A stretch of DNA of 38,934 nt from Oceanospirillales bacterium. GTDB taxonomy: Bacteria; Pseudomonadota; Gammaproteobacteria; Xanthomonadales; SZUA-38. The number at the start of each line of letters is the position of its first letter. Positions within the stretch are counted from its first letter, which is position 1. This document shows positions 4,301 to 38,324 of this stretch, piece by piece. The notes under the pieces are model-generated. The model did no database searches, was not told the origin of the DNA, and saw nothing but the letters and a program-made list of their open reading frames with translations. The stretch spans positions 1 to 38,934 of the forward strand of contig QIKT01000197.1 in NCBI GenBank assembly GCA_003233095.1, read 5' to 3'. The translations under genes were made by a program, and so were the position numbers.

Positions 4301-4791
4301 TGTCTGACCTGGTCTTCGCCGGATAGCCGAAATGGCATGACCTGCGCATCCAGATCGAGCAGTGCAGAGGACAGCTTCCACTCCGGTTGAACAGGCCCTG
4401 CAAACCGAATGGCAAGGCTCGAATCGTTGCCAAGAACGGTCAACTGATCCTTGCTGGCTCGTACCAGATAGGCCTGCTTTGGCAGAAAGCCCAGAATCTC
4501 GACGTTCTGATCAATCAACGCCTTGCGATAGTCGGCGGCCAGACCGTCAAACTGAATCACATGGACGTCCGATCCAGTGCTGGATTGGAGCTCGAATTGA
4601 CTGACAGCCAGTCGTTCTTGTGTGGGATCAATGGCTCCGGTACTGAACATCAGCATGGTGGGATCGCTGACCGTTCTGATCGTATCGGGGGTCAACTGTT
4701 GAGCATTGACTGGTTCCAAATTGGCGCTGACAAGTGATGGCATGGCCATCATGCTGATCAGGATGATAGGCAGGCTGGATCTGAAATGCAT
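1330..4791 (-). CDS. secreted S8 (subtilisin-like) serine protease with fibronectin-III-like C-terminal regions
   Basis: N-terminal signal peptide. Catalytic motifs 'VAVMDSGLDRNED' (Asp), 'NGFHGTHVSGTVAGD' (His), 'SGTSMSAPTVAGAAAL' (Ser). C-terminus ends 'IIFSDSFED'. Confidence 0.92.
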   Translation of the reverse strand: MHFRSSLPIILISMMAMPSLVSANLEPVNAQQLTPDTIRTVSDPTMLMFSTGAIDPTQERLAVSQFELQSSTGSDVHVIQFDGLAADYRKALIDQNVEILGFLPKQAYLVRASKDQLTVLGNDSSLAIRFAGPVQPEWKLSSALLDLDAQVMPFRLSGEDQVRQNGLGIEINGYPGETTQSLTLALRKIAPQAILINASNYANAPVIQLWISRTNATALIEQATAINAVSFLSPYIPVTINNSDSVEPIQRNAASTGAPTNTPIWDQGLIGSGQIVAVMDSGLDRNEDWFVGYDQGSGPLVELTDSEEPLPPSIAATFPDRKIVAYWVQPGATAYDNNAVCTTSANGFHGTHVSGTVAGDTLTRSTPTDPGYDNNDGMAPNAQILFQDIGNDTSGCLSIANLGQSLEQARNGGAYIHTNSWGAVTGGAYNADSASLDQFTWQFEDHLVLFSAGNSGSGGNTIGAPGTAKNALTVGALGHGNSLSAAGFSSRGPTDDGRLKPDIQAPGSSIISARGDTNNSATVETAQTSSKSGTSMSAPTVAGAAALMRQYFTDGFYPLGSANPADTRQPSGALMKAMLLNGTAIPASFAVPSQTFGWGRVFLDNNLYFDGDSRYTRVWDVPHSGGLATGESDTYQAAVDAGEELRVTLVWNDPPSFPSAASNLVNNLDLTVRHIGTNTTWLGNVVTAGASSTGGTADSVNNVEQVILPAPLAGTYEISVDGSSIPGDGQNFSDSQGYALVSTGSAEPATISAPTSVTATDQGITGIDVAFASPVRGGISTFNVYRADGDCTASATEFRLIGTTTTESLTDTNVIGGFTYSYLIRSVRSDVNEGQASSCSSASVAMSTAACNLTPDFDQTSVIAGDASSNDYETTVSWTAATASCPAGSVSYNLYRDTDPFFTPSMANRIETGFAGTSYSDTSVSSQTYYYVVRAADASETPGNLRVKATPVGNFNMAGTFSDGADNLSLMTLQGPWSVTDNRAATGVLSYRNATDAATQYIPNTCATITTPPLELQSGSPSLDYTARYDLEPDWDGVVVEISTDGGNSWNDLPPAGGYPGDFNMTGNPPINACGYVTTQGAFNGSSLGDFNSFSSDLSAFAGQTVQIRWVMSTDPGSQDEGFYLDDVQVTQASSPAMCGALSPIIFSDSFED

Positions 4792-4897
4792 GTAAAAACC
4801 TCGGATAATGAGATGGTCAAACCACGTTCCCAGCCACGGAGCATAGTGCAGGTGGTTACGCTGTCAAAATGACTCGCGCACAGCACTGTTGTCACTC

Positions 4898-5874
4898 TCA
4901 GCCCAGGTCGAGACGCTGCAAATCGGGGGCTGGATGGGCTATTTGCCAGATCTGCTCAAACTCGCGTATGCGCTGCCTGACTTCCTGGCGCTGATTGATT
5001 CGAAACGATGCGTCATAGCGATCGCTGAAGTTTCTGAAAATCTCGGTGTGATCATCAATCAGTACCCAGGCTCGCGTATCGCTCTGATGTTCAGGCGAGG
5101 GCATACGACAAAGGATGACACTCTGAAGACGTCGGGCAAGCTGGATCAGCCGATGGCCATTCATCACGGCCTGTTTCGAGTCATGAATAAGGATTCGAAT
5201 GTCGGGTCGAGTGGCGGTTGTTGCGACCCGACGAATCGCACTGACAACGTCATCGGTGTTCATGGCCAACGGGTCGAGGTCTTGAGTCTTGATCAGGATT
5301 CGCCGGTGGGCGTTGTTAAGACATTCGATCAGACCATCACGGTACTCGGACAAACTGCGAGCCTCGTAGATGCCAGAACGAGAGCCCTCGGGAATCGACT
5401 CCGGAAATTCCATTCGTGCCGGGTGCAGGGACGACTGTATTTGATCACTGACGTCCAGTCGCATCCATCGATGCGGGATGCCCACGTCGTCAAACAGCTC
5501 CCCTTCAGGCACGAATCCCTGCTTTGCGTAAAACGGCAATGCATAGTCTTGAGCGGCAAGCCGAAGCGGGGTCATGCGGCGTACGATAGCCTGTTCGATA
5601 CAGCTTCGCAGCAATGCGGCACCGACTCCCCTGCCGCGCCATCTTGATGATACCGCCATGCGTCCGATTCGCCCGTCAGTGGTCAGGCGAGCGGTTCCGA
5701 TGGGTCTGCTCTTGTGATCTCGAGCAAGGAAGTGTGTGGCCGTCTCATCGTCCTGATCCCACTCTTCATGCTCAGGCACCTGCTGTTCAATGATGAATAC
5801 CTTGGTTCGAACCAGTTTGATATCGATTCGATCGTGGGCCCAGGATGCCGGTTCGATGTAGTAATCAGAGATCG

Positions 5875-5878
<4 letters not shown>
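4898..5878 (-). CDS. GNAT family N-acetyltransferase with C-terminal PLD-like/DUF7931-like domain
   Basis: GNAT motif 'GRMAVSSRWRGRGVGAALLRSCIEQA' and 'ALPFYAKQGFVPEGELFDDVGIPHRWM'. The ~150 aa C-terminal extension 'RRILIKTQDLDPLAMNTDD...ILIHDSKQAVMNGHRLIQLARRL' resembles PLD-like folds. Confidence 0.8.
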
Positions 5879-8407
<2,529 letters not shown>

Positions 8408-8479
8408 CTAATCACAGCGGCTCATAATACAATGCTTCACTTCAAGTTGCCTGTTTTATCTGATCAAGGGAAATCACCA

Positions 8480-9859
8480 ATGACCGACTATCGCATCGAA
8501 CGAGACAGTATGGGTGAACTGAATGTGCCTGCAGACGCACTATATGCCGCACAGACACAGCGCGCCATACAGAATTTTCCCATCAGTGGCTTGAGGATTC
8601 CGCGTCAGATGATTCGAGCGCTGGGTCTGATCAAGGGAGCGGCTGCGGTCGTTCACCGTGATCTGGGCATGCTCGATGAAGAGATGATGATGGCGATTCA
8701 TAATGCCGCCCGTCAGGTGGAGAAAGGGGAGCATGATGATCAATTTCCAATTGACATCTTCCAGACCGGATCAGGCACCAGCTCGAACATGAATGCCAAT
8801 GAGGTCATCGCCACGCTGGCCCGTCGACAGGTTGACAGTGTCCATCCCAATGATCACGTCAACATGGGCCAGAGCAGCAATGATGTGATTCCTACTGCGA
8901 TCCACGTCAGTGGTTGTCTTGCAGTCCGCGAACAGCTGATTCCAGCCTTGGAGCATCTGGCATCGGTCTGTGAACGTCGCGCAGAAGAATTGGGTCAGGA
9001 ACCAAAGACCGGGCGAACCCATCTGATGGATGCCATGCCGGTGACCTTTGGTCAGGAACTGGCCTGTTGGGCGGCTCAGATTCGAAGTGGTATCGATCGC
9101 GTTGAATCGTCCTATCTGCGTCTCTCCAGGCTTCCTCAAGGTGGCACGGCGGTGGGTACCGGAATTAATGCGCATCCTGAACTCGGTGTGCGGATGGCCA
9201 GACAGTTGTCAGAGATGACCGGCATTGATTTCTCATCCAACGATAATCTCTTCGAAAGCATCAGTTCGATGGATGCGGCTGTCGAAATGTCGGGTCAATT
9301 GAAAACGCTGGCCTGCAGCATGATGAAAATTGCCAATGATTTGCGTCTGATGAACAGCGGCCCGTTGGCCGGCATCGGTGAAATTGCATTGCCTGCACTT
9401 CAGCCAGGCAGCAGCATCATGCCTGGCAAGATCAATCCGGTGATTCCCGAGGCAGTTTGCATGGTCTGCGCGCAAGTGATCGGCAATGATTCGGCGATTA
9501 CAGTCGGCGGTCAGTCAGGGTTGTTCCAGCTCAATGTGATGTTGCCGATGATTGGTTACAATCTGGTGCAAAGTATTGAAATATCAGCAAATGCTGCTCG
9601 TGCTCTGGCGGATAGTGCGATCGAGGGTTTCACCGTTAATCGTGATTCGGTGGCTGACGCGCTGGCCCGCAACCCGATTCTGGTCACTGCGTTGAATGCC
9701 GTTATCGGATACGACCTGGGTGCGGCCACCGCCAAAAAAGCGTACAAGGAAGGTCGGCCGATCAAGGAAGTAGCTCTGGAAATGACCGATCTGGATGAAG
9801 CCCAGCTCGATAAATTGCTGGATCCACTGACGCTGACCCGCGGGGGAATTCACAAATAA
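8480..9859 (+). CDS. fumC: class II fumarate hydratase
   Basis: Internal Met of the 8372 ORF: 'MTDYRIERDSMGELNVPADALYAAQTQRAIQNFPIS'. Also 'TGSGTSSNMNANEVIA' and lyase signature 'GSSIMPGKINPVIPEA'. Confidence 0.95.
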   Translation: MTDYRIERDSMGELNVPADALYAAQTQRAIQNFPISGLRIPRQMIRALGLIKGAAAVVHRDLGMLDEEMMMAIHNAARQVEKGEHDDQFPIDIFQTGSGTSSNMNANEVIATLARRQVDSVHPNDHVNMGQSSNDVIPTAIHVSGCLAVREQLIPALEHLASVCERRAEELGQEPKTGRTHLMDAMPVTFGQELACWAAQIRSGIDRVESSYLRLSRLPQGGTAVGTGINAHPELGVRMARQLSEMTGIDFSSNDNLFESISSMDAAVEMSGQLKTLACSMMKIANDLRLMNSGPLAGIGEIALPALQPGSSIMPGKINPVIPEAVCMVCAQVIGNDSAITVGGQSGLFQLNVMLPMIGYNLVQSIEISANAARALADSAIEGFTVNRDSVADALARNPILVTALNAVIGYDLGAATAKKAYKEGRPIKEVALEMTDLDEAQLDKLLDPLTLTRGGIHK

Positions 9860-11710: not shown

Positions 11711-12682
11711 TCAATCCTCGTTGGCGTAGCGCCTCAGATAGATCGCCACACTCAGGAAGACCGCGCCCAGAATCAAGCCATACCACATCCCGGGTTCGGC
11801 GAATTTGTTGATCATGATTGACCAGTCATAAGGAGAGAACAGGGCCTCTCCCTCTTTCATCTGCCCAACAGAGATCCCGTTGATCAGGAATGAGTCATTC
11901 TGAAAGTCGCCTGCAATCGGAATGGTTCCGGACATGAAGCGCTGCCCAATCACAACGGTCAGATTGGGGCCGGTGTTCATCTGCAGCAGATTGCTGATCC
12001 ACAGTTGCAGCAGTGAGACCACGGCGATGGGCAGTGCGAACCAGAGAAATACTTTGCCCTTGGCCCTGGCAGACAACATCATGCAATACGTCCAGAGCGG
12101 AAACAGCCAGAAGGCATTGATGACAAAGGCCACGACATAGCTGAAGAAGTCTCGAATTGGATTGGCCGGATACCAGATGTGAGACCACAGCGACAGACCC
12201 GAGTCAAACAAAAGCACACTGAAGATAACCAGCAAAATCGAGTAGACGACCGTGAAGATGACTGCCCAGATCAACGGGGTCATCAAGCTGCCAGCAACCA
12301 GCTTGGACAGGACTGATTGGGTGTCCGATACTGGCATGGAGCGCCAGAACAGAATGCTGCGGTCCTTGCGATCATCGAGCAGGCTGCCCAGATAGTAAAA
12401 CAGCAACACAAACATCAGGATCATATTCGACAGAGTAGACAGCGCCATGAATCCAATCTGATATCCAATCGATAACTTTTCATGGGACAGTTCGGTCACT
12501 TGCTTGGCGAAATTTTCCAGGATAAAGAAGTCCGGATCAATGCGTCCCTCGGTCACCGAGAGCCAGGTCACGAACAGGATGATTCCGAACAGAAACATGC
12601 CACCCAGGATGAGTGGCAGTCGGCTGAATGCAAATCGGTGTTCCCAATATTCTCGTTTGAGCAATGCGGCAAACGTCTTCAT
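11711..12682 (-). CDS. ABC-2 type transporter permease
   Basis: 323 aa with multiple hydrophobic helices; overlaps the upstream ABC ATPase gene by 4 nt. Confidence 0.8.
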   Translation of the reverse strand: MKTFAALLKREYWEHRFAFSRLPLILGGMFLFGIILFVTWLSVTEGRIDPDFFILENFAKQVTELSHEKLSIGYQIGFMALSTLSNMILMFVLLFYYLGSLLDDRKDRSILFWRSMPVSDTQSVLSKLVAGSLMTPLIWAVIFTVVYSILLVIFSVLLFDSGLSLWSHIWYPANPIRDFFSYVVAFVINAFWLFPLWTYCMMLSARAKGKVFLWFALPIAVVSLLQLWISNLLQMNTGPNLTVVIGQRFMSGTIPIAGDFQNDSFLINGISVGQMKEGEALFSPYDWSIMINKFAEPGMWYGLILGAVFLSVAIYLRRYANED

Positions 12683-13536
12683 TCGCCTTCCTCCGTCATT
12701 GTGGCCACGAACAGGTCAGCTACGCTGGGGTGTCGGACCTCACCCAGGGTACTGACTACCGCAGGGTCGGCATTGTCGTACAGACACACCAGCTTTCCGA
12801 AGACATCGCGTTCATGCAGTGGTCCCAATGCTCGAGCCTGTTCAAACTTTTCCGGGGCGACCATGACTTCACAGAAGCGTTGCGCGACATCATCCATCGT
12901 CGCGTCGAGAATGATCTCCCCATCCCGAATGAACATCAAGTCAGTGAGAATATGTTCGATTTCTTCGACCTGGTGGGTGGTGATAATGATGGTTCGCTCT
13001 TCGTCAAAATAGTCATTGAGCAGGTTGGCGTAGAATTTCTTGCGAAACAGAATGTCCAGGCCCAGTGTAGGTTCATCCAGGACCAGCAGTTTGGCGTCGA
13101 TCGCCATGACGATGGCCAGATGCAGTTGCGCGACCATGCCCTTGGAGAGTGTTTTGACCTTGCTGGCGGGTTTGATTTTCGATGAGCTCAGGTAGTAGTC
13201 GAGTTTTTCCCTTGAAAACCTCGGATGAACCGCCTGAACGTATTCGATCACTTCCCGAACTCGTATCCAGCGTGGCAATACAGCCACGTCTGCAATAAAG
13301 CAGACATCCTGCATCAGTTTACCGCGGTCAGCCATGGGATCATTGCCAAGTATCTTCAGGTTACCATCGAAGCGTGTCAGGCCGAGTATGGCTTTCAAAG
13401 CCGTGGTCTTGCCCGCGCCATTGGGACCAATCAGACCGACAATTCTACCGGCTGGAATCTCGAAGCTGACGTCGTTCAACGCGACGTGCTTACCGTATTT
13501 CTTTGACAGATGTTCTGCCTTGACGATCATGGACAT
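12679..13536 (-). CDS. ABC transporter ATP-binding protein
   Basis: Walker A 'GLIGPNGAGKTTALKAILG', Walker B 'LLVLDEPTLGLDI', 'TLSKGMVAQLHLA' in the signature position. Confidence 0.93.
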   Translation of the reverse strand: MSMIVKAEHLSKKYGKHVALNDVSFEIPAGRIVGLIGPNGAGKTTALKAILGLTRFDGNLKILGNDPMADRGKLMQDVCFIADVAVLPRWIRVREVIEYVQAVHPRFSREKLDYYLSSSKIKPASKVKTLSKGMVAQLHLAIVMAIDAKLLVLDEPTLGLDILFRKKFYANLLNDYFDEERTIIITTHQVEEIEHILTDLMFIRDGEIILDATMDDVAQRFCEVMVAPEKFEQARALGPLHERDVFGKLVCLYDNADPAVVSTLGEVRHPSVADLFVATMTEEGE

Positions 13537-16904: not shown

Positions 16905-16934
16905 CGTCTGCGGGTCAGCTCTGACCTGCAGACG
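16905..16934. terminator. hairpin between convergent genes (putative terminator)
   Basis: CGTCTGCGGGTCA-GCTC-TGACCTGCAGACG (12 of 13 bp pair). No strong T tract; overlaps the 3' end of the lasso B1 gene. Confidence 0.45.
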
Positions 16935-17196
16935 TTCGCATCAGCCCGCGTTCGAGTAATGAATCGACCAGCTTGATCAGATCGGTGTGAATGATCTGGG
17001 TCTCGGCTTCAAACTCTTTGCCTATCTGTTTGACGATCTCTGTTTCGGAGTCGCCACTGAGGATCATTTCGAACATTCTGGTGGCCACCACATTGAGTTG
17101 AAAGTACTGGCCGGATTCCGGCTCTACCAGAACCATTTCTTCGCCCACTCGCTCGGCTAGCAACGTCTCGTTGACTTCCAGTTGTTCCACGTTCAA
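16915..17196 (-). CDS. PqqD-like RiPP recognition element protein (lasso peptide B1)
   Basis: 93 aa, TTG start in a TTGA overlap with the upstream gene; 'VLVEPESGQYFQLNVVATRMFEMILSGDSETEIVKQIGKEFEAETQIIHTDLIKLVDSLLERGLM' is a PqqD-family pattern. Confidence 0.88.
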   Translation of the reverse strand: MNVEQLEVNETLLAERVGEEMVLVEPESGQYFQLNVVATRMFEMILSGDSETEIVKQIGKEFEAETQIIHTDLIKLVDSLLERGLMRTSAGQS

Positions 17197-17618
17197 GGCG
17201 TTTTCTCCGTGCCAGAAGACTGAGTTGGCTTGAGGGTAATCAGTCGCTCCAGCAAGCTCTCGTCCTGATCCAGTCTCAATGAACCGGCTTGCACCCAGGC
17301 ATGCGCCCTGAATGCAGACGCCGTCCCAGTGGTGGCGTGCACTCCGAGTTTGATGCAGGCATCAATTCCGTCAGAACGAAGTCGTCTGCTTAGCCAGATT
17401 GCCCGCGTCAGACACGTTGACCATGGCATCCACGCGGATCCCATGGACTGATGCAGGCGATGCTGACACTGCGCTTCGGTATGGCTTGACAGTGGCTGCG
17501 TTCTGGCATCTTCTGTGCCTAACAAGTGTTGTGCAACTGGTTGAAAACCTTTCAGTTTCAACTGGATTGAAACACGGGATACCCCAACAGTTCCAGTCAT
17601 TCTATCGATCAGTGTCAT
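17193..17618 (-). CDS. lasso peptide biosynthesis B2 protein (transglutaminase-like leader peptidase)
   Basis: From internal Met (MTLIDRMTG...), ATGA overlap with the HprK-like gene. 'CLTRAIWLSRRLRSDGIDACIKLGVHA...FRAHAWVQAGSLRLD' contains the conserved Cys and His regions of the B2/McjB family. Confidence 0.88.
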   Translation of the reverse strand: MTLIDRMTGTVGVSRVSIQLKLKGFQPVAQHLLGTEDARTQPLSSHTEAQCQHRLHQSMGSAWMPWSTCLTRAIWLSRRLRSDGIDACIKLGVHATTGTASAFRAHAWVQAGSLRLDQDESLLERLITLKPTQSSGTEKTP

Positions 17619-18556
17619 AGGCTCAGTATAGTGTCTGCAATGGGCTGAACCAAGCGAGAATCCTCGATCGACTGGATCTTCAGGGAGTGGCATTGGCCGG
17701 ACAGGGTGTCTGCCCAGGCAGCGAAGCACGTCAACTGTGTCGCGGTCTGTTTAGGCGCATAGAGCCGAGCGGTGACGGTATGACGGAGCAAGCTCATGAC
17801 GATCTGTGCGCCAGTCAAAGCGGTGGTTTCAATCGGTTTATGAGAGGGGTCAGCAGCACTGATTCGTTCGAGCACAATGAAGCGAGTGATGCTGTTCGGC
17901 TCAGGCTGGAAATCAAGTTTGCCAGACTCAGGCAGTTTCAGTTGCGGATAGTTTTCCGCACGGAATGCATCATCGGCATGTTCCAGCCAGGCGATGTCAT
18001 CGCCCAATCGTCGCCATCCTGGGGATTGCGACAACCGTGCAGACAGGGTTGATTTCCCCGTCCCGCTTTCGCCGCAAATCAGACATAGCCCTTCGGGAGA
18101 TTCGAGCATCGCAGCATGCAACATCGGCTTGCCTGCTGCCGCCATCGCCATGGGTAACAAGGGCCCGAGTATCAGGGTCATCAACTCGGCAGAAGTGATG
18201 GTCCCTTGAGGGTGGATGCGAATAGTCGCCGGCAAATCGGCTGTGGCATATTCCAGTTCACAGTCGGCGAACTGTGGCAGCCGGAGGCTGATACCATTGC
18301 TGTGATGGGCCCAGTGCAGGGCTCTGTCTGCAGACGCAATCCAGAAGCGATCGCACGACTCGATGCTCGTTGACGTGGGATGCTTCCATGATTTCTTGCC
18401 ACTGGCAGGCAGGCCACACAATGGCGAGGGCGCTTGAACTTCGAATGAGTCAAGCGCTTTGCTGAGTCTGGGTGAGGAAACAATCATGGCCCCAAACCGA
18501 TAGTGGATCGGGGTGTCATCGCGGTGAGTCAAATGGAGGATAACTGACAGAGTCAT
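17615..18556 (-). CDS. HPr kinase-like protein of a lasso peptide cluster (putative peptide kinase)
   Basis: 313 aa; P-loop 'GLCLICGESGTGKSTLSARLSQSPGWRRLGDDIAWLE' and overall HprK-related layout, located between precursor and B2. Confidence 0.82.
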   Translation of the reverse strand: MTLSVILHLTHRDDTPIHYRFGAMIVSSPRLSKALDSFEVQAPSPLCGLPASGKKSWKHPTSTSIESCDRFWIASADRALHWAHHSNGISLRLPQFADCELEYATADLPATIRIHPQGTITSAELMTLILGPLLPMAMAAAGKPMLHAAMLESPEGLCLICGESGTGKSTLSARLSQSPGWRRLGDDIAWLEHADDAFRAENYPQLKLPESGKLDFQPEPNSITRFIVLERISAADPSHKPIETTALTGAQIVMSLLRHTVTARLYAPKQTATQLTCFAAWADTLSGQCHSLKIQSIEDSRLVQPIADTILSL

Positions 18557-18578: not shown

Positions 18579-18752
18579 TCAGGGCCTCAAGGAACCCGAG
18601 TTACCGCTTTCACCGACGCCTGGTGTTGGCCCCATGGTCACGTCACGAACGTCTCCACAGTCAAGCACAAGCGGAGTCTGATAGGCCTGCCGAGGAGTGT
18701 TCGGCGAGGTTTCGATGCTGGGTGGATGGTTTCCGGCATGTTCTGGGGTCAT
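18579..18752 (-). CDS. lasso peptide precursor (57 aa)
   Basis: Hand-translated from the minus strand; missing from the ORF track because of length. MTPEHAGNHPPSIETSPNTPRQAYQTPLVLDCGDVRDVTMGPTPGVGESGNSGSLRP. Leader segment YQTPLVLDCGDVRDVTMG matches Y-x2-P-x5-G-x5-T-x-G spacing. Core starts with Gly and has Glu at position 8. Lies in the gap between the cyclase and kinase genes. Weak SD 'AGG' 9 nt upstream of ATG. Confidence 0.9.
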   Translation of the reverse strand: MTPEHAGNHPPSIETSPNTPRQAYQTPLVLDCGDVRDVTMGPTPGVGESGNSGSLRP

Positions 18753-18841
18753 GTTGCTCTACCTGAGGGTCGCTTAACTGCCAATATTAGCCGCTAATTC
18801 ACTGATCCACAATTCCAGACTGATCATCTGCCATAAAACCA

Positions 18842-20536
18842 TCAGGCCACGGTCCGAGAATGGCTCAACTGGGATTCGATCCAGTCAGCCTCCAGATAGT
18901 CAGGCCAGCAGGCATGGTCGGCATGCAGAATCTGCTCAGCCCGATGGCGATGCTGTTCGATGCCGTGCATAAAGATCGAGGCGAAGCTTGTCTTGCCGAC
19001 TCGCTGGGTGATCTGCTCAGGGAGACGTTGCTGCATGGCTTGTCTCATCAACCATTTACTCTGGCCTGTCACTGGGTCGGTGAGATAGTGGGCCGGCAAG
19101 CTGAGCATGAAGCGTATCAGTGCAGGATCTCGCAGGGGGTAGTGTTGATTGATTCCCCAGTTGGCATGAATCTGCCGGCCAAGCAGGGCTGAGTCGGCGG
19201 CATTGACACTCAGGCAGGCTTCGAAGCGGTCGGGCTCAGCGAGGGCGTTGAGATACTCCCTTTGGCGCGATTCGAACAACAGTCGATTGGCACCTGGTGT
19301 CAGCCAGGCGGTATGCCGCTGCCTGAATCGTCTGGAGCATCCGTTCAGCGGTAACAGTCTGCGAAGCGAATCCTGCCGACGAAATCCTTTCAAACCATGA
19401 GCCTTGATGCGACTGCGAATGACGGAGGCGATTCCCGGCTGTCGCGCGCGCCACGCGTCTCGCAGATGATAGTGTTGTCCCAGATAGAGGTGGTCGCCGA
19501 AGTCGCCGGTCATCAGGGTATCCATACCATCGTCGAGAACACGACATGCCAACTGATGCCTGAGCACGCGGTAAGGGTCGATGAACGGGGCCTGGAGCGG
19601 TGACTTCATGGCCATGAACGCATCACTGAGTGGCTCAGGTTGCCGAATCGTGACGCGTTCAGTCGCGATGCCGAGATGAGCACGGAGTGCGTCGGTGTAG
19701 CGATGCTCATTACCGGCCGGGAAATCTGCAAAATCCCAGCTGTACGCCACCGCCTTGTCGGTCTGTCTGGAGAGGCTGGCTGCGACAGCGGTCGAATCCA
19801 TGCCGCCACTGACGGCCAGACCGATTTGTCCCGAGCTGCTATTCAGCGACATCATGCTGCGCTCTACCGATTCATCCATCAAGCGGATCAGTTGCTGTTC
19901 AGCATCATTCTGGTTCATCGTGCGGGCTTGAGAGTCCACATGGAACCATTGGAAGCGTTTCATGCGGACCTGCATTGGATTCAGTGTCACCGCATACATG
20001 GGCACCGCTTGCCTGATTTCATTGAAGAATGTGCTTCCGGGTTCGGCGTTTTCCAGACCCAGATGACTGGCAATGCGATGTCGGTTGAGCGTATAGCGGC
20101 GATCATTGCAGTTGAGTAAGCACTGTTCGTCAGAGCTGATCAAAGTCTGTCCTCTCAGTTGCTGATAGAACAGGCTATAAAGGCCACACATCGATCGATA
20201 CAGCGTGGCATGCTGGCCCCGGATTTCAAGCATGGCGAAATGATTGTCATCAGGATTGTTCAGACGGCCTTGTGCATCGAGACAGGCGGACTCAGTCATC
20301 AACACTCTCAGGTGATCAGCCTGTTGGTTCAGATGAACAACTCCAGGGTGCTGATCGGCCAAGCTGGCAACAGGCAGTTCGGATGCCGATTCAGTCAGCA
20401 TGGCCAGACTGGCGCAACGAGTGCTGAGAATAATGGGCTGGCGATCGCTGACTCGAGCCAACATGTGCTGTACCTGTCTCTCGCGAGCCTGGACAGGCGC
20501 ATCCGACACGATAGCGGTCAATGCTCGTACTTTCAT
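18842..20536 (-). CDS. asparagine synthetase-like lasso cyclase (C protein)
   Basis: 564 aa; PP-loop 'IGLAVSGGMDSTAVAASLSRQTDKAVAYSWDFADFPAGNEHRYTDALRAHLGI', 'DTLMTGDFGDHLYLG'. No N-terminal catalytic Cys as in true glutaminases. Confidence 0.9.
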   Translation of the reverse strand: MKVRALTAIVSDAPVQARERQVQHMLARVSDRQPIILSTRCASLAMLTESASELPVASLADQHPGVVHLNQQADHLRVLMTESACLDAQGRLNNPDDNHFAMLEIRGQHATLYRSMCGLYSLFYQQLRGQTLISSDEQCLLNCNDRRYTLNRHRIASHLGLENAEPGSTFFNEIRQAVPMYAVTLNPMQVRMKRFQWFHVDSQARTMNQNDAEQQLIRLMDESVERSMMSLNSSSGQIGLAVSGGMDSTAVAASLSRQTDKAVAYSWDFADFPAGNEHRYTDALRAHLGIATERVTIRQPEPLSDAFMAMKSPLQAPFIDPYRVLRHQLACRVLDDGMDTLMTGDFGDHLYLGQHYHLRDAWRARQPGIASVIRSRIKAHGLKGFRRQDSLRRLLPLNGCSRRFRQRHTAWLTPGANRLLFESRQREYLNALAEPDRFEACLSVNAADSALLGRQIHANWGINQHYPLRDPALIRFMLSLPAHYLTDPVTGQSKWLMRQAMQQRLPEQITQRVGKTSFASIFMHGIEQHRHRAEQILHADHACWPDYLEADWIESQLSHSRTVA

Positions 20537-20539
20537 GAC

Positions 20540-21751
20540 TCAGTGATTCACGTTTGGCTTGGGGCCTCGAATCAAGTTCCAGAAACCATTGAGCAGACGT
20601 CTCAGATAAAACCAGGGCAGGGTGATTCGATGGCGGATGCGATAGCGTTGGATCATGTAACGAGCCGGTGGCAGCATCAATTCCAATAGAAAGGCCAGCC
20701 GATCTGGCCATGACTGGACGGACAAGTCCTGTTTCAGTGCTTGCCATCCTCCGACCTCAACGGCGATCTGGTCTCCCGCCGCAACGGCCTGCACGAGTTG
20801 CTGGCGTTGATCAGCATCGATCAGCGGATCGAACCAGCACAGCATGGCATCGGCTTCGTGAAGCAGGGCCTCAGCCAGGCCATGCTCTGAAAACAGCTTG
20901 AGACACTGACTCTGCTGGGTACTGTCGAATTGCTGCCAGATCAGCCACAGATCAATCCACCAGATCATTCGGATGTCCTCATGATGATGGCTGACCCTGT
21001 GGATGACCGCATGGATCATGGCCAGTTCTGGAGGCAGGCAATGGGCTGTTTGAGCCGCTGCTGCAGCGTCAAACAGTGTCTGCTCATTGAGACTCGCAGC
21101 GTACACCTTGCGGTTGGAGACTGACCAGTGAAGATCGACGGCAAGATGACAGCTGCTCGAAAGCGTTCGACCATATTGCTGTTCGGAAAAAACCAGGTCA
21201 GCACCGGTAGACAGGGTTCTGAAGTAGCCACAGCGCTCGAGTAAGGCCATGGCCCTGTCTCGATGGTCGCGACGGACCAGCACATCCACGTCGCCTCTCA
21301 TCCGAAGTCGCGATGCCGGGTACAGCCAGCGCCCCAGTGCCTCGCCCTTGAGCAGTATCCAGTCGATCGATGCCTCGTCAAATTGACGACTCAGGTCGAC
21401 AAATGCCTGTTGTTGCATCAACCATTGAGCCGTGTACACACGGGCTGATTCGGCCACCGGTTTTTGCTGCAGTTCCGAGAGCTGAATCAAGCCTTGTAGT
21501 GACCATTCATGAACCATCAGCGTGATACCATGAAGATCCAGAAATTCGAGCAGATTGTCGCGGTCATTAGAGACTTGACTGTCGATGCACGACTGAACGG
21601 CAGAAATCAAGGACTTATCTGCCCAAATTGTTGAATTTTTGGTAAAATTGTCCAAGAGTGCTTTGATTTCAAACCATTCAGACAACATACTAGCAGTATC
21701 AGTCAGGGAGTCGGCAGAAATGCGCAGTAAACGGCAAGACGGGACGGTCAT
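20540..21751 (-). CDS. nucleotidyltransferase family protein (NTP_transf_5-like) of the lasso cluster
   Basis: 'SIDWILLKGEALGRWLYPASRLRMRGDVDVLVRRDHRDRAMALLERCGYF'. The ORF extends to 21868, but that start would overlap the divergent CDS; Mets at 21751 and 21688 are more plausible. Confidence 0.85.
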   Translation of the reverse strand: MTVPSCRLLRISADSLTDTASMLSEWFEIKALLDNFTKNSTIWADKSLISAVQSCIDSQVSNDRDNLLEFLDLHGITLMVHEWSLQGLIQLSELQQKPVAESARVYTAQWLMQQQAFVDLSRQFDEASIDWILLKGEALGRWLYPASRLRMRGDVDVLVRRDHRDRAMALLERCGYFRTLSTGADLVFSEQQYGRTLSSSCHLAVDLHWSVSNRKVYAASLNEQTLFDAAAAAQTAHCLPPELAMIHAVIHRVSHHHEDIRMIWWIDLWLIWQQFDSTQQSQCLKLFSEHGLAEALLHEADAMLCWFDPLIDADQRQQLVQAVAAGDQIAVEVGGWQALKQDLSVQSWPDRLAFLLELMLPPARYMIQRYRIRHRITLPWFYLRRLLNGFWNLIRGPKPNVNH

Positions 21752-23549
21752 GATTCTACGTACAATTTTGTTTGCAGCGCTGTTCAGTGCGGCAACCTCG
21801 GGCATGTCGGCAGAAATCAGGGAAGATATCTCTGACGCCAAGCAGGACGATGTGTCGGCTCGCGACATTACACGTCAACTCGTCGACCGCGGCGAACATC
21901 CTGCCAACGTCGCTCAGGCCGTGTCCGAAATCTACGGCAGCTGCGACGACATTGCCAGCAGCGTTTCAGAAGCTGTCGAAGGCCGCCGGGAATATCTTGA
22001 ATCGGTCGTTTCCTCGGTCTCTGCATTGGGTGAATGCGGTTGCAGTGCAGATTCATTATGGTCACGTACCCGACTGGAGTCGCGACTCAGGTTGCCCTCA
22101 ACCAGACTGCTGGTAGAACTTGATCCGAGCATGGCCTGTGCGGCGGTGGCCGCTGAATCGGCCAGTTACCACTTTGCTGAAGATTCCGGCCTGATTCTTG
22201 AGGCGGCCATGCAAGCGCGTCAACCTCAGTCCATTCCCTACGACTCTTTCGGAACCTTGACCAAGGGCAATCAGGCACCAGCACAAGCTTACAAACGCCA
22301 GTCCTTCTATTGCAGTAACGATCGTGATTTGTCGGATGAATTTGAACAGCAGGATCGATGGATGGCATTTTCTCCGGGTTCTCTGCCGCAGGCTGACTGG
22401 ACGCCGGATTGCGATGAGGATGACGAATATGAATCTGAGGATCGCGATGGAACTGATACCCTTCTGATTACCGAAGTGGCTATGCCGGGTAGCGGCGGTT
22501 CCTACGTAGCACTGTATAACGGCACCGATCAGCCTCAGGATCTCAAGCAGTCCGGTATCAGCTTGTCGGTCTTCTTCAATGGCGCGGCCAAGCCTGGATT
22601 GGTGGTTCCTCTGGAGGGTGTGATCCCGTCTCGAGGCCATTTTGTGGTCGGTGGATCACGCTTTGACGAAAATCAGATTGATCAGGTCGAAAGCGGTTTC
22701 AAGCTCTCACCGAACGACAGTGTCGCGATTACGCCTCCGGTGGTCAGCTATAACTGTGACGGCATTCGATCGGTGTTCGGAGGAGCGCTTCGTGGTGCCG
22801 TGCAGATCGACGATGCTGATGAAAACAGCCATCTTGTGATTCATCCGCGCGAATTGGTCAAGAACAAGGTCGCCCGACAGTTTGGTGCTCTGCAGGGCAA
22901 GACGCCAGGCTACGTGGCCGATGCAGTCGGTCAGGTGCCTCTGGATGAGGACGATCTACCGATTGCGCTGCTCGACAACGCGCTGACTCGACAGACCAAT
23001 CAATGTCAGCCAGACAGCAATGAAACCGATACCTTTGCCGGCAGTTCGAACTGGACCAGCACTGCAGGTGCCAGTCTGGGGAAACCTAACAATCAATGCC
23101 GTAGCAACTGGCATGACGGGGTTCTGATTTCGGAGCTGGCCAACGGTGAAGATCAGCAAGATGCCGTCGAAATCTACAACGGTGGTCAAGGGACAATCGA
23201 TCTCGGTGAGGAAGGCTACTTCCTGGAGATTTATCGTGGTGGCAATGAGCAGCCTGATGAAATTGTCACGCTCGAGGGGAAAATCTCACCTGAGCAGATT
23301 TTCCTCATCGCCAATAATGATGTGGATGACAGCATCCAGGATCTTGCCGATCAATTGACTGACGAAATTGTCCTCGATGATGCGACAGCGGTGTTGCTGG
23401 TTCGTCAGCTGACACCCGGTGGTCGCCAGTGTCGCAATTCCATTGCCGGTCTGCTGACGCTCGAGAACGTCCCGAATGTAGTTTATGTGCCGGGGCCTGA
23501 TCGAACACCCGAGCCTCCCAGAGTCGATCCGATCGCCAGCCCGAATTGA
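21750..23549 (+). CDS. exported lamin-tail-domain (LTD) protein
   Basis: From internal Met: signal peptide 'MILRTILFAALFSAATSGMSA'. Two LTD-like segments, 'LLITEVAMPGSGGSYVALYNGTDQPQDL' and 'VLISELANGEDQQDAVEIYNGGQGTIDLGEEGYFLEIYRGG'. Confidence 0.75.
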   Translation: MILRTILFAALFSAATSGMSAEIREDISDAKQDDVSARDITRQLVDRGEHPANVAQAVSEIYGSCDDIASSVSEAVEGRREYLESVVSSVSALGECGCSADSLWSRTRLESRLRLPSTRLLVELDPSMACAAVAAESASYHFAEDSGLILEAAMQARQPQSIPYDSFGTLTKGNQAPAQAYKRQSFYCSNDRDLSDEFEQQDRWMAFSPGSLPQADWTPDCDEDDEYESEDRDGTDTLLITEVAMPGSGGSYVALYNGTDQPQDLKQSGISLSVFFNGAAKPGLVVPLEGVIPSRGHFVVGGSRFDENQIDQVESGFKLSPNDSVAITPPVVSYNCDGIRSVFGGALRGAVQIDDADENSHLVIHPRELVKNKVARQFGALQGKTPGYVADAVGQVPLDEDDLPIALLDNALTRQTNQCQPDSNETDTFAGSSNWTSTAGASLGKPNNQCRSNWHDGVLISELANGEDQQDAVEIYNGGQGTIDLGEEGYFLEIYRGGNEQPDEIVTLEGKISPEQIFLIANNDVDDSIQDLADQLTDEIVLDDATAVLLVRQLTPGGRQCRNSIAGLLTLENVPNVVYVPGPDRTPEPPRVDPIASPN

Positions 23550-23619: not shown

Positions 23620-24975
23620 ATGCGAGTGACTATCTTTGGTACCGGCTATGTCGGACTGGTGACTGGTGCCTGCTTGTCCAACATGGGCAATCAGGTGTTG
23701 TGCATGGACCTGGATCAGACCAAAATTGATGGCCTGAAGCAGGGCGTCATTCCGATCTACGAGCCCGGACTGGATGCGATCGTTCAGGAAACCACTCAAT
23801 CTGGCCACCTCAGATTCACCACTGACGCCGAGGAAGCAGTCGCCTTTGGCGAGATTCAGTTGATCGCAGTGGGTACTCCGCCCGATGAAGATGGCAGTGC
23901 CGATCTTCAACATGTGCTGGCGGTGGCAAACACCATTGGCGAATTGATGAGCGACGACAAGATCGTTGTCGACAAGTCGACTGTGCCGGTCGGCACAGCG
24001 GATCGTGTCCAGCAGACCATTCAAGCTCAGTTGGACAAGCGCGCAGTGAGGGCACATGCTGCGGTGGTCTCAAACCCAGAATTTCTCAAGGAAGGCGCTG
24101 CGGTTGACGACTGTATGCGACCAGATCGAATTATTCTGGGCTCTGATGATGAAGACGCTATTGCGGTCATGAAGGCATTGTATGCGCCGTTCAATCGCAA
24201 TCATGACAAGATCATTGTCATGGATGTTCGATCGGCCGAGCTGACCAAATACGCCGCCAATGCGATGCTTGCAACCAAGATCAGCTTCATGAATGACATG
24301 GCCAACCTGGCCGAGCGAGTGGGTGCTGATATCGAACTGGTTCGCCAGGGCATCGGATCAGATCCTCGAATCGGTTTTTCTTTCATCTATCCGGGCTGCG
24401 GCTATGGCGGCTCCTGTTTCCCCAAAGACGTCAAGGCACTGGTGCGCACGGCTGGTCAGCATGATTACAACATGCGAGTGCTGGATGCCGTCGAGGCCGT
24501 CAATCAGGATCAGAAACATCGACTGTTCGAGCGGATCACGGAGTTTTATCGCGGTTTAGAGCTGTCGAGCAAGACCTTCGCTATCTGGGGGTTATCGTTC
24601 AAGCCCAATACCGACGATATGCGAGATGCGACCAGTATCGAGCTGGTTCGAGCACTCTGTGATGCAGGTGCCAGGGTGTGCGTGTTTGACCCGGAGGCCA
24701 TGGACGAAGCCCGGCATGAATTCTCTGATCTTGACTCTGTGATTTACGCCGAATCCGCTCAGGATGCGGTGTCGGGAGCGGATGCTCTTGCGGTGGTTAC
24801 CGAGTGGAAGTCGTTCTGGAGTCCGGACTTCGAGTTACTGGCCAAGACCCTGACTGATCGCGTCATCTTTGACGGTCGCAATATCTACGATCCAGACGTG
24901 GTTGCCGAGGCAGGCATTGCCTATTACGGGATTGGACGCGGGCTGTCTGTCTCGCGTCCAGTGATGTCTAGCTGA
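23620..24975 (+). CDS. ugd: UDP-glucose 6-dehydrogenase
   Basis: '[32 protein letters not shown]', catalytic '[20 protein letters not shown]', '[18 protein letters not shown]'. Confidence 0.97.
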
Positions 24976-25958
24976 TGCGCTCGACACTTGAACCGCTGCG
25001 TACACTGGTGACCGGCGGCGCCGGCTTCCTGGGCTCATATCTGTGTGATGCGTTGCTCGCCAAGGGTCACGATGTGGTCTGCGTCGACAATCTGTTTACC
25101 GGAAGCAAGCGAAATATTGTTCATTTGCTCAATCATGAGCGATTCGAATTCATCCGTCATGATGTGACCTTTCCGCTCTATCTGGAAGTAGATGAAATTT
25201 ACAATCTGGCCTGCCCAGCGTCGCCCGTCCACTACCAGCACGATCCGGTCCAGACGACCAAGACCAGCGTGCATGGCGCAATCAACCTGCTGGGTCTTGC
25301 CAAGCGCCTGAACGTACCCATCTTTCAGGCGTCCACGTCTGAAGTGTATGGCGATCCGGCGATCCACCCACAGATCGAGTCCTATTGGGGCAACGTCAAC
25401 CCGATCGGCCCTCGATCCTGCTATGACGAGGGCAAGCGCTGCGCTGAGACCTTGTTCTTCGACTATCACCGTCAGCATCAGCTACAGATCAAGGTGGCCA
25501 GAATTTTCAACACCTATGGTCCGCGCATGCATCCCGACGATGGCCGAGTGGTCTCCAACTTCATTGTTCAGGCGCTTCGCGGAATCGATATCACCATCTA
25601 CGGCGATGGCAGCCAGACTCGTTCCTTCTGCTACGTCAGCGACATGATTGCTGCGTTCACAGCACTGATGGCCACTGATGCTAGCGTCACCGGTCCTGTC
25701 AACGTGGGTAACCCGGGAGAGTTCAGCATTCTTCAGCTGGCTGAGCAGGTGATCGAACTGACCGGCTCCTCGTCGAAAATCGTGCACAAGCCCTTGCCAG
25801 TGGATGATCCGGTGCAGCGCCAACCGGATATCAGCCTGGCACAACAAGTTCTGAACTGGCAGCCCGAAGTCCCTCTGAAAGAAGGGCTGATCGAGACGAT
25901 CGCCTATTTCGATTCCTTGTTGTCCGGTTCAGACTCTGTAGAGAACGGCCAGGAATAA
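24975..25958 (+). CDS. NAD-dependent epimerase/dehydratase, probable UDP-glucuronate decarboxylase
   Basis: '[38 protein letters not shown]', '[38 protein letters not shown]', 'STSEVYGDP', '[23 protein letters not shown]'. TGATG overlap with ugd. Confidence 0.93.
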
Positions 25959-34397: not shown

Positions 34398-37300
34398 TCA
34401 CGAGTCGTTCAGTTGCAACAAGTCAATCAACGGGCTTGGGCTGTGTATTGCGCTACCCTGGATGTAATCAATTTCCAGGTGACTCAACACATCAATGATT
34501 TCCTGGCTTTCCACATGCTCGGCAATGGTTTCTTTGCCCATGTAATGAGAGATTTCATTGATGGTCTTGACCAGGCCCAGATCGACTGAACTGGTCGTGA
34601 CTTCCTTGATGAACGATCCATCGATCTTGATGTAATCGACCGGTAGAAACTTCAGATATGAAAAGGAGGACAGCCCGGTACCGAAGTCGTCGAGAGAAAA
34701 GCGACAGCCGATTTTCTTCAACTCTTTGAGAAAGCCACTGCACTGTGACAGATTGTTGATGGCGGCTGTTTCAGTGATCTCAAAGCAGATTCTGGACGGT
34801 GGTATGTCGACTTTTTCGAATTGCTGCTTGATATAAGGCACAAATCCAGGGCGGTTGATCGTTTTACCGGAAATATTGATCGCCAATCTGGATATCTGTT
34901 GCTTGATGGGGCTGGATTCAAGCATTCTGAGCGCATTGGCAATGACCCATTCGTCCAGAAAATGAATTCGACCATAGGCTTCTGCCACGGCGATGAACTT
35001 GTCCGGTGGAATCATCTCACCCTTTGAATCGCGCATCCGGCAGAGAATTTCGTATTGCCGACGCGTTCCTTCATCGGAGTTCAGTGACTTGATCTGCTGG
35101 CCATATAACTCGATCCGGTTCTGTTCGAGGACATCATCGATCTCGAGCACCCAGGATTCGGTTTCGTCCAGAATTTTCTGATCATTCTTGCCGTTAGTAC
35201 TGATGATCACCTGATCGCGACCATTCTGTTTGGCAGTGCGAAGCGAGGTCTCCAATTGATTGAGTACCGTGCCAATGCTATCGGAATTTCGATTGATCTG
35301 CGTCAGCCCGAGGCTTGCGGTTACTTTCAGATTGCTGTTCTTGCGCCGATTGTGAATGTTGGCAATGGCCTGTCGGATACTGTCTGCGGTTTCCTCGCCC
35401 TGTTTGACATCGGTCGAGGGCATCAGAACGGCAAATTCATCGGCATTCAGTCGGGCGACAATGGACTGTTCGCTGACCTGCTTCTCAATGCTCCGAGAGA
35501 CATCCTGGAGCAATTGGTCGCCGGTTTCCTGGCCATAGATGTTATTGATGACTCGGAAATGATCGAGGTTGACCAGCACGGCTGTATGCACCGTATGCAT
35601 CAGCTTCGATTCACCGATCTTGAGTCTCAGCAGACGACTGAATTCCTTGCGGTTGTAGGTGCCGGTCAATTCATCGTGAGTGGCCTGGTGAGCAATCTGA
35701 CCGTGCAATTTGTTGACCATGCCATGCCATGAACGATCGACCAGCGACTGGTCCTGAGCATCAATCATCACCGCTCGATCGGTTTCGAAGTCATGGGCCA
35801 ACTCAGTCAGGCTGCGTTCGACCACCTTGCGCCCGTTGCGGTTGACAAACACATACTGCGATCTGTCTTCACTGACCCAGGCCAGGCGAATCGGTCGTGC
35901 TTGCCCGGAAGAGTCAGGATACATCAGCCACATGTTGGTATCGATGGATTTGGCCACGTCCAACCAGTGACTCTGTTCCTGGGTCAGGTCTCGGTTTTCA
36001 TCGATTCGGTCGTCATTGAAGACCGGCTCATAGGCCACATGAGGAACGTCGGACTCCGGTTCGATGAGCGCCTCATCCAGATCTTCGATCAGACGGGCGC
36101 ACTGTTTTGGCGCAATGTTGTTGTCGTGCAGTCGTTCGCGAATTCGTTCAAGTAGATCGGTTCGATCTGCCTCAGAGATGATGTTGCCCTGATTATCCTG
36201 ACCGAGATGGTCATCCAACTCGTCAATGACCGACAACAAGCCCTGATATTCACCATCGTCGTCACCGCGAACAATGGCTAAATCCATGAGTTCCCGCCAG
36301 CCCAGGTTCAGAAGCTGATCGATCAATTCGGGAATTTCACGTCCTGTAAATCGCTGGTCCAACGACTGATGAACCTCTTTACGGGCATTCGACAGTCGTT
36401 GCTGACCTTCACACATGTCGATGACGCGCCTGAGCTGCGTGACACGTTGACGCCGTTGGCGACTGAGCAGGGTGTTGAGTCGATCAGCGGATTCACTGAA
36501 CAATGACTGATCCGGTGTGTCCAGGTTCTTGAGCCGGTCAACAATGTCGCTGATCTGCGAGATCAGTCGCTGATCATTGGGACTCATATCATCACTGGAA
36601 TCAAAGCTGGAGTCGCCCAGGTTGTCGACCACTGCCCGGGCAGCATTATGCTCGTCGGTAAACAGTGGCTGTTGCTCCAGCAACACCTTGAGTAACTGAA
36701 CATCGAGCTGCCCGATCCATTTTCGAGATTGATCATCCAGTGCATCATCATTCTGAATGGTGTCGACCAGTTGCTCGGCGACGCCGATGATCTGTTCATG
36801 TTCTTGCTGGATGCGCATGGCTTCCTGACTGCCAAATCGCATGCACAACGCATCATCAATCCGCTGTCTCAGCGGCTTTGCCGCGGATTCGGATTCGGAT
36901 TCGTTGATCTGAAGGTCTGACAGTGCGGCATTCAGATCATTGAGTTGCAACATGGGGCCTGTGTATTCAGCAGATGTCGAGAGGCCTTCATTGGCATGCT
37001 GGGTCTGGCTACCCTGTCTGAGCAATTCCAGAAGGTCGATCACCTTGGCCGTGGCATCGGCCGGTATTCTGGGGCGTTGCTCGCTCTGGGCCATGCCATT
37101 TTCACCTGAGTCCGATGACGGAGACGTTACAGGCGACGACGACGACAACCCGATATTCGATTGCGCTGTCGATTCAGCCTGTTCGGAACGAGCTGGCTCG
37201 ACCTCGTTCGAGGGCTCAGAGGTCACCGGTGCTGATCGACGCTGCGAGACCTGATGCGGCGTCAAGACAATATTGGGCAGGATATCGGCTTCGGCCAGCG

Positions 37301-38324
37301 TGCCATTGATGCCCTTGTACAAACTGCTGATATGTTTGTTCAGATGACTGCTGAAGGTCTTCCAGATCAACTGATTGGCGTCATGGCCAAACTCATGCGC
37401 GACCATGGCCTGGGTCAGGTAATGGTGAAATACCATAGGGTCGAGCGGATTGTTCGAGCTTTCAATGATCTGGCCGGCGACAATCCCCAATCGTGTTTCC
37501 AGCTCCATCAGAGTCTGATGGTTGCGGTTGTGAATCGCGGAGATGAATTCGGAAAAAGACAACCATTCTTCAAATTGCTCATCATCCACCAGGGCGAGCA
37601 ATTTGCCCTGATCCTCCTGATGTTGCTGTTGCGCACTCTGGACGTGTCTGAAATGGCTGAAATGACTGGATATCTCTGCCAGAAAAGTGTCCAGGATCGC
37701 AGCCTGATGATTGTGCAAGGTGCTCAGCGCGTCGAAATAGAGGGTCTGCTTGCCCGGGTCTCGAGAGTCACTGGCCGCATCGAGCATGCGATGCTTGATT
37801 TCCTCAAACGCTTCTCCCAGGTAGCGACTGAAAAAACTGACGGTGCGTCGATTGACCTTGTCGATGAGTTGGCTGCGTTCGGGTTCATCAATGTGCAACT
37901 GGGCCTGAGATGAGTCGAAACCCTGCTGCTCGGCGACCTGATTGAGCTGGCTGCTGAGTTGGTCATGCAAGGCATCAAAGGCCACGGCAAAACCGAGTTG
38001 GGTGGAACGAATGATCCGACCTGGATATTGTTGAATTGTCTTGTCGATCGACATCTGGATGCCGATGGTCACCTGGTCTCCCGCCTGCAGACGACGCGCT
38101 ATTGGGTGATCGGCGGGCTGAGTGCGATCAACCATGGTGACATAAACGCCACCTGGACTGTGGTTGTTGATCAGTACTGGAATATCTCCAGACTGCGAGA
38201 TCTGCAGCCAGGCTGTATGACGCACTGAATATCGAATATGCCTGCGCTGGTTCTGTGTCGTCATCAAATCGCCTGGTGTTTGGCTGTGGTTGTCTGGACC
38301 CAACCTTCGATCATGGTAGCGCAT
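34398..38324 (-). CDS. PilZ - (DUF1631-like) - GGDEF - EAL c-di-GMP signalling protein
   Basis: PilZ-like N-terminus 'RRHIRYSVRHTAWLQ...NHSPGGVYV'. GGDEF-like 'LTGTYNRKEFSRLL...ARLNADEFAVLMPST' (degenerate motif). EAL domain 'YEILCRM...FEITETAAINN...LDDFGTGLSSFSYLKFLPVDYIKIDGSFI'. Start may be the internal Met 'MTTQNQRRHIRYS'. Confidence 0.9.
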   Translation of the reverse strand: MRYHDRRLGPDNHSQTPGDLMTTQNQRRHIRYSVRHTAWLQISQSGDIPVLINNHSPGGVYVTMVDRTQPADHPIARRLQAGDQVTIGIQMSIDKTIQQYPGRIIRSTQLGFAVAFDALHDQLSSQLNQVAEQQGFDSSQAQLHIDEPERSQLIDKVNRRTVSFFSRYLGEAFEEIKHRMLDAASDSRDPGKQTLYFDALSTLHNHQAAILDTFLAEISSHFSHFRHVQSAQQQHQEDQGKLLALVDDEQFEEWLSFSEFISAIHNRNHQTLMELETRLGIVAGQIIESSNNPLDPMVFHHYLTQAMVAHEFGHDANQLIWKTFSSHLNKHISSLYKGINGTLAEADILPNIVLTPHQVSQRRSAPVTSEPSNEVEPARSEQAESTAQSNIGLSSSSPVTSPSSDSGENGMAQSEQRPRIPADATAKVIDLLELLRQGSQTQHANEGLSTSAEYTGPMLQLNDLNAALSDLQINESESESAAKPLRQRIDDALCMRFGSQEAMRIQQEHEQIIGVAEQLVDTIQNDDALDDQSRKWIGQLDVQLLKVLLEQQPLFTDEHNAARAVVDNLGDSSFDSSDDMSPNDQRLISQISDIVDRLKNLDTPDQSLFSESADRLNTLLSRQRRQRVTQLRRVIDMCEGQQRLSNARKEVHQSLDQRFTGREIPELIDQLLNLGWRELMDLAIVRGDDDGEYQGLLSVIDELDDHLGQDNQGNIISEADRTDLLERIRERLHDNNIAPKQCARLIEDLDEALIEPESDVPHVAYEPVFNDDRIDENRDLTQEQSHWLDVAKSIDTNMWLMYPDSSGQARPIRLAWVSEDRSQYVFVNRNGRKVVERSLTELAHDFETDRAVMIDAQDQSLVDRSWHGMVNKLHGQIAHQATHDELTGTYNRKEFSRLLRLKIGESKLMHTVHTAVLVNLDHFRVINNIYGQETGDQLLQDVSRSIEKQVSEQSIVARLNADEFAVLMPSTDVKQGEETADSIRQAIANIHNRRKNSNLKVTASLGLTQINRNSDSIGTVLNQLETSLRTAKQNGRDQVIISTNGKNDQKILDETESWVLEIDDVLEQNRIELYGQQIKSLNSDEGTRRQYEILCRMRDSKGEMIPPDKFIAVAEAYGRIHFLDEWVIANALRMLESSPIKQQISRLAINISGKTINRPGFVPYIKQQFEKVDIPPSRICFEITETAAINNLSQCSGFLKELKKIGCRFSLDDFGTGLSSFSYLKFLPVDYIKIDGSFIKEVTTSSVDLGLVKTINEISHYMGKETIAEHVESQEIIDVLSHLEIDYIQGSAIHSPSPLIDLLQLNDS

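Follow-up and report, generated by a model that had tools for sequence, protein, structure and literature searches.

A predicted lasso peptide precursor beside an HprK-like kinase gene, and its core family with a conserved phosphorylatable head

Kinases of lasso peptide clusters use the C-terminal Ser of the precursor, a residue that is extremely conserved in such clusters (reviewed in PMC9266682 and PMC8498205). The Paeninodin, Thco and Syan systems described there combine B1, B2 and C with an HprK-type kinase that carries the HKDD residues and acts on the lasso precursor, as does the locus reported here, but their kinases modify the C-terminal Ser, whereas none of the 18 kinase-linked distinct cores that we collected ends in Ser. 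Similarly, the Pseudomycoidin (Psm) locus joins a kinase and a nucleotidyltransferase-like N protein in one lasso locus, and PsmK and PsmN act on a C-terminal Ser that the present core lacks (PMC9266682, PMC8498205). Two described systems come closer. The bsf cluster of Bradymonas sediminis (PMC10368454) has A, B1, B2, C, K and N genes, a core starting at Gly1 with an 8-residue ring and a hydroxyl at residue 3, no C-terminal Ser, and a kinase whose H, K, D and D stand at nearly the same numbers as here; BsfK works on the precursor while it is linear, with the help of B1, and phosphorylates Ser3 of the ring, where Thr is also tolerated. Unlike our locus, bsf has Ile(-2) rather than Thr(-2) in the leader, an ABC transporter, and a core (GTSGNEVDGSTPADRGNNPGD) without the GxxxGxG[DE]SG head. 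The linear polyphosphorylated peptides (LPP) share kinase, RRE and NTase with our locus, and LppK modifies Ser3 of the linear core and rejects Thr at this position; however, LPP clusters have no cyclase and another leader peptidase and give a linear product, while here C lies beside A and B2 is present (PMC13381572). These two papers rule out that a lasso-like kinase without a C-terminal Ser would be unprecedented. The functions of most lasso tailoring steps are still to be unravelled (PMC9266682).

The locus and its precursor gene

The window, by which we mean the whole analysed stretch of 38,934 nucleotides (contig QIKT01000197.1 of the Oceanospirillales bacterium assembly GCA_003233095.1), carries on its minus strand the genes N (PF14907), C (PF00733), A, K (a weak HprK-related match), B2 and B1 in this order (Table 1). 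The ATG start of B2 overlaps the stop of K.

Table 1. Features of the lasso locus and its neighbours in the window
Feature	Position	Strand	Basis
Lasso precursor gene A (very probable)	18579..18752	minus	57 codons + stop TGA
Leader MTPEHAGNHPPSIETSPNTPRQAYQTPLVLDCGDVRDVTM with Y(-17), P(-14), G(-8), T(-2)	18633..18752	minus	NF033521 match, residues 24-41; cleavage point predicted from T(-2)/G1
Core GPTPGVGESGNSGSLRP, predicted 8-residue ring Gly1-Glu8	18582..18632	minus	ring position predicted from G1 and D/E8 across the family
K, HprK/PEPCK-fold kinase; H147, K168, D186, D187 present	17615..18556	minus	alignment, structure model
B2, transglutaminase-like leader peptidase; Cys in STCLTR, His in AHAW	17193..17618	minus	NF033537 and PF13471, both over cut-off; alignment
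B1, PqqD-type RRE protein, TTG start	16915..17196	minus	PF05402 over cut-off; NF033530 below cut-off
C, asparagine-synthetase-like lasso cyclase, SGGMDS ATP motif, shorter than relatives	18842..20536	minus	PF00733, alignment
Out-of-frame continuation of C, DRGLMVLWQMISLELWISELAANIGS, conserved C-terminal LWxxxxxxxW tail	18774..18854	minus	alignment
N, NTP_transf_5 nucleotidyltransferase-like protein	20540..21868	minus	PF14907, alignment
UDP-glucose 6-dehydrogenase	23620..24975	plus	neighbour kept in the family's four genomes
NAD-dependent epimerase/dehydratase resembling UDP-glucuronate decarboxylase (putative name)	24975..25958	plus	neighbour kept in the family

Gene A lies between the asparagine-synthetase-like cyclase gene C and the HprK-like kinase gene K. 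The first-pass annotation had proposed there a minus-strand ORF of 57 codons, from the ATG at 18752 to the TGA at 18579, and we found both coordinates and translation to be exact. It had read the spacing of Tyr, Pro, Gly and a penultimate Thr as that of a lasso leader and had named a precursor-model search as a check. The NCBIfam model lasso_leader_L3 (NF033521), whose proteins carry the same leader motif, aligns to the very stretch that was named, residues 24-41, so the check succeeded in place but not in score, which was 16 bits against a cut-off of 19. The cut-off was passed by four of the six core-family relatives tested (19.7-28.2 bits). As expected from the sub-threshold score of A, a search across the class with this profile did not recover the window's own genome. 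NF033521 is a general leader model and is silent on core and tailoring.

Over the block GDVRDVTxGPTPGVGESGN, all differences between the window and its nearest relative (L077) fall on third codon positions, 11 of the 19, indicating that the minus-strand frame of A codes and that the antisense ORFs do not. Against three family relatives, the same 19 codons show 11, 12 and 12 third-position changes, zero or one at first positions and none at second positions. A conserved ORF, which the annotation had expected in homologous clusters, is indeed present: each of the three other genomes in the window's family has one between C and K, and a similar gene adjoins K in about 15 further loci of the order; these comparison loci were collected by a kinase search and not by a precursor search. 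Moreover, the combination of leader motif, tail and upstream Met was found in one ORF of the window and in none of 200 first-order Markov simulations of it. A tblastn search of plasmids with the precursor gave no match.

The ORF at 18752-18579 is a coding gene, and almost certainly a lasso precursor, as the annotation had held: the leader HMM, the PqqD-type RRE protein, B2 over cut-off, the AsnB-like cyclase, the conserved position and the codon-level selection all support this reading. A has both the YxxP...T(-2) leader and an acidic residue at core position 7-9 (Glu8), and quite probably it would give a class II lasso peptide of the phosphorylated kind. The hydroxyl residues of the core are T3, S9, S12 and S14, and the core ends in Pro.

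No transporter or isopeptidase was recognised beside the lasso genes of the window, which leaves export unexplained. An ABC ATPase and a membrane protein at 11711-13536 (minus strand), syntenic near the lasso locus in all four family genomes, are a possible but unproven candidate exporter. The window further encodes an apparently secreted lamin-tail-domain protein at 21756-23549 (plus strand), whose frame overlaps the 5' end of N on the opposite strand by about 113 bases, and a 1308-residue protein with DUF1631, GGDEF and EAL domains at 34398-38324 (minus strand).

The core family and its kinases

The annotation had not recognised the core as a characterised one. It belongs to a widespread conserved family with the common head G-x-[S/T]-x-G-x-G-[D/E]-S-G, notable for an HprK-type kinase that has no C-terminal Ser as acceptor. 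For the conservation claim we used a set built without any core pattern, by a kinase search of the order in which flanking ORFs were read for the leader motif; all 16 distinct cores of this set carry G1, S/T3, G5, G7, D/E8, S9 and G10. Pooling all sources raises the number of distinct cores to at least 36, found in Lysobacterales and Arenicella genomes; in this wider set the conserved ring is partly imposed by the search pattern. The degenerate DNA pattern, applied to 85,462 species genomes, gave 41 loci, nearly all labelled Lysobacterales/Xanthomonadales, Arenicella, Alcanivoracaceae or unplaced Gammaproteobacteria/Proteobacteria.

Thr(-2) is present in the leaders of the window and the family. 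All four genomes of the window's family share the first 11 core residues without a single change, but identity between the window and its family relatives is 24-37% for N, C, K, B2 and B1 and about 35-41% for the leader, compared with about 53-75% for most syntenic housekeeping neighbours. If the target were fixed, one would expect such a pattern of an unchanged ring made by rapidly evolving enzymes.

The four residues H147, K168, D186 and D187 of K are invariant in an alignment of 21 family kinases and match H148, K169, D186 and D187 of BsfK. Modelled with a mean pLDDT of 77, K resembles known structures of PEPCK and HPr kinase, with E-values of about 1e-5 and modest TM scores. Kinase clusters from other genomes of the phylum served as an internal control for the C-terminal Ser: precursors ending in Ser were found there and in one cluster of the same order (L094), with L194 and L198 as exceptions. 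The L094 cluster (G158, 4550-8778) represents another type of kinase lasso cluster; both of its precursors have a C-terminal Ser (NVNVLGGGDTVFSSLNPS and NVNTPGPGDTVFSVLAPS), and an ABC transporter-like gene adjoins it. The kinase-linked precursor at L194 (G774, 8524-8724) has a different core (VGLTNPGGDVWPGKADHDPGSITHSNAGGN), likewise without a C-terminal Ser. In one family genome, a second set of PqqD, kinase and NTase-like genes (L127, G003:C104) lies away from the lasso locus and may belong to another RiPP or an HPr-rel-type system.

In the kinase tree, the family kinases are split from the C-terminal-Ser kinases and from BsfK with 98/98 support. BsfK stands outside the family clade on a long branch, and the family kinases are no closer to it than to the C-terminal-Ser kinases; a residue-3 acceptor thus rests on conservation and analogy, not on inheritance. 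We consider it likely that K phosphorylates the core head. Residue 3 is the preferred acceptor because it is Ser or Thr in every core, and by analogy with the described kinases Thr3 would be the acceptor in the window with a likelihood somewhat below even; that the window has Thr3, the residue rejected by LppK, counts against the analogy. Alternatively, Ser9, Ser12 or Ser14 might be the acceptor, or A might not be a substrate of the kinase. Ser9, which lies next to the ring-closing residue, is present in every core, but two characterised kinases without a C-terminal Ser acceptor both use residue 3, and residues 12 and 14 are not conserved. This alternative is on the whole unlikely, and Ser9 taken by itself is a rather improbable acceptor.

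The cyclase gene and the arrangement of the pathway

The annotation had called the locus a complete core lasso locus. This held for the presence of the B1/PqqD, B2, C, K and N genes, but the frame of C loses a conserved tail. C is about 26 residues shorter than its aligned relatives (15 in the alignment) and keeps the SGGxDS motif. The missing tail, with two nearly invariant Trp residues, is encoded in another frame (Table 1) and ends 21 bases before the start of A. The break near 18855 would be either a base error of the assembly or a fresh genuine lesion; given the frameshift, the peptide may not be made from this assembly as written. C and K gave no match in a phmmer search of PDB sequences, and a scan of the contigs of close-relative genomes with C found nothing because C is too divergent.

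It could be proposed that the pathway is decaying in this genome, with A intact, the tail of C lost and no lasso made. The early end of C, its LW..W tail in the next frame and the lack of any other locus in the own genome matching the window's C at E <= 1e-10 speak for such decay. However, the genome is a fragmented assembly of 232 contigs, in which a base error is plausible, every other gene is open with its catalytic residues, and the out-of-frame tail is still conserved and still keeps its distance from A, indicating little decay since. We think decay the less likely reading.

The order C-A-K-B2-B1 recurs in other families of the order, and C lies directly beside A in f1, f4, f10, f11 and the Arenicella loci. 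In the f8 genomes, A, K and B2 stand together beside conserved housekeeping genes, with C and B1 elsewhere; in several g10 genomes, A-K-B2 has tatC and pepN on one flank and hemN on the opposite one (names read from sequence). Those A-K-B2 loci that lack C were considered as possible non-lasso systems, and same-family C homologues were found elsewhere in those genomes. Among 12 Arenicella-labelled and similar genomes, C and A form one locus, a family-type K is present in 11, and K stands divergent from N, mostly with B1, at a separate locus in 10 (noted at L205-L215). In G006, assembled in two contigs, the C-A-K locus and N are 3.4 Mb apart on one contig.

N is not confined to the window's family: 13 of the 15 other family genomes in the order carry an unlinked N gene, compared with 5 of 20 genomes of the order in which no K was detected (Fisher p 0.0005, a value that ignores relatedness, and the K-negative genomes may include missed kinases).

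A product of the LPP type, that is, a linear phosphorylated RiPP made with kinase, RRE and NTase and left uncyclised while C acts elsewhere, would fit the genes that LPP clusters share with lasso clusters and their phosphorylation of Ser3 (PMC13381572), the truncated C of the window and the unlinked C of the f8 genomes. Yet C adjoins A in the five groups of loci named above, the f8 genomes also hold a same-family C, residue 8 is always D or E at ring-closing distance, and the peptidase seen is B2 and not an SpI-like one, so that this reading is very improbable. As for A being a chance open frame, its shortness and the overlapping antisense ORFs carry next to no weight against the codon-position test, the kept position and sequence and the simulations, and we count it refuted.

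Proposed pathway and role

For the lasso reading that we prefer, B1, through its RRE, would bind the YxxP leader, and K would phosphorylate a head hydroxyl while the precursor is linear, likeliest at residue 3 (Thr3 here, Ser3 in most relatives) and otherwise at Ser9. The phosphate may next receive a sugar- or nucleotide-type group from N. B2 would cut after T(-2)-M(-1), and C would close Gly1 onto Glu8 around the tail. N retains the aspartates that a nucleotidyltransferase should have, D193, D195 and D245, which are invariant in its family alignment. It precedes C in each of the four genomes of the window's family and is oriented divergently from the UDP-glucose dehydrogenase and UDP-glucuronate-decarboxylase-like genes; the former enzyme is a possible source of a sugar donor, a link that amounts to a hint because these neighbours belong to a longer syntenic block.

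In several lineages the genes stand at separate chromosomal places and yet the core does not change, a pattern that points more to a conserved role in the cell than to an arms race between antibiotics. Such a role is made plausible by a core head that stays constant as the enzymes change, and by the retention of the genes even where they are unlinked, and a conserved non-antibiotic function of the product (signalling, metal or envelope binding) is possible, at well under even likelihood. The combined picture is, as a whole, less likely than not: a family with a near-fixed ring, made by an order-wide chromosomal pathway (A, C, K, N, B1, B2) that is sometimes split over at least two loci, with the ring phosphorylated by a kinase lineage of its own and with a conserved function in the cell rather than interbacterial killing.

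A text search of the open-licence literature gave no paper on the core motif or on lasso peptides in these taxa. The family is apparently an undescribed, distinct subfamily within the phosphorylated lasso peptides, a known kind; as far as checked, its new features are the conserved head, a kinase clade of its own and genes that can be unlinked. Unlinked pathways would escape miners that require B and C next to A. With more than 30 natural cores that share an invariant phosphorylatable head, a separate kinase clade and a nucleotidyltransferase that co-occurs with it, the family allows direct tests of acceptor and function. If the fixed head reflects a fixed target, these would be lasso peptides with a cellular role besides killing competitors.
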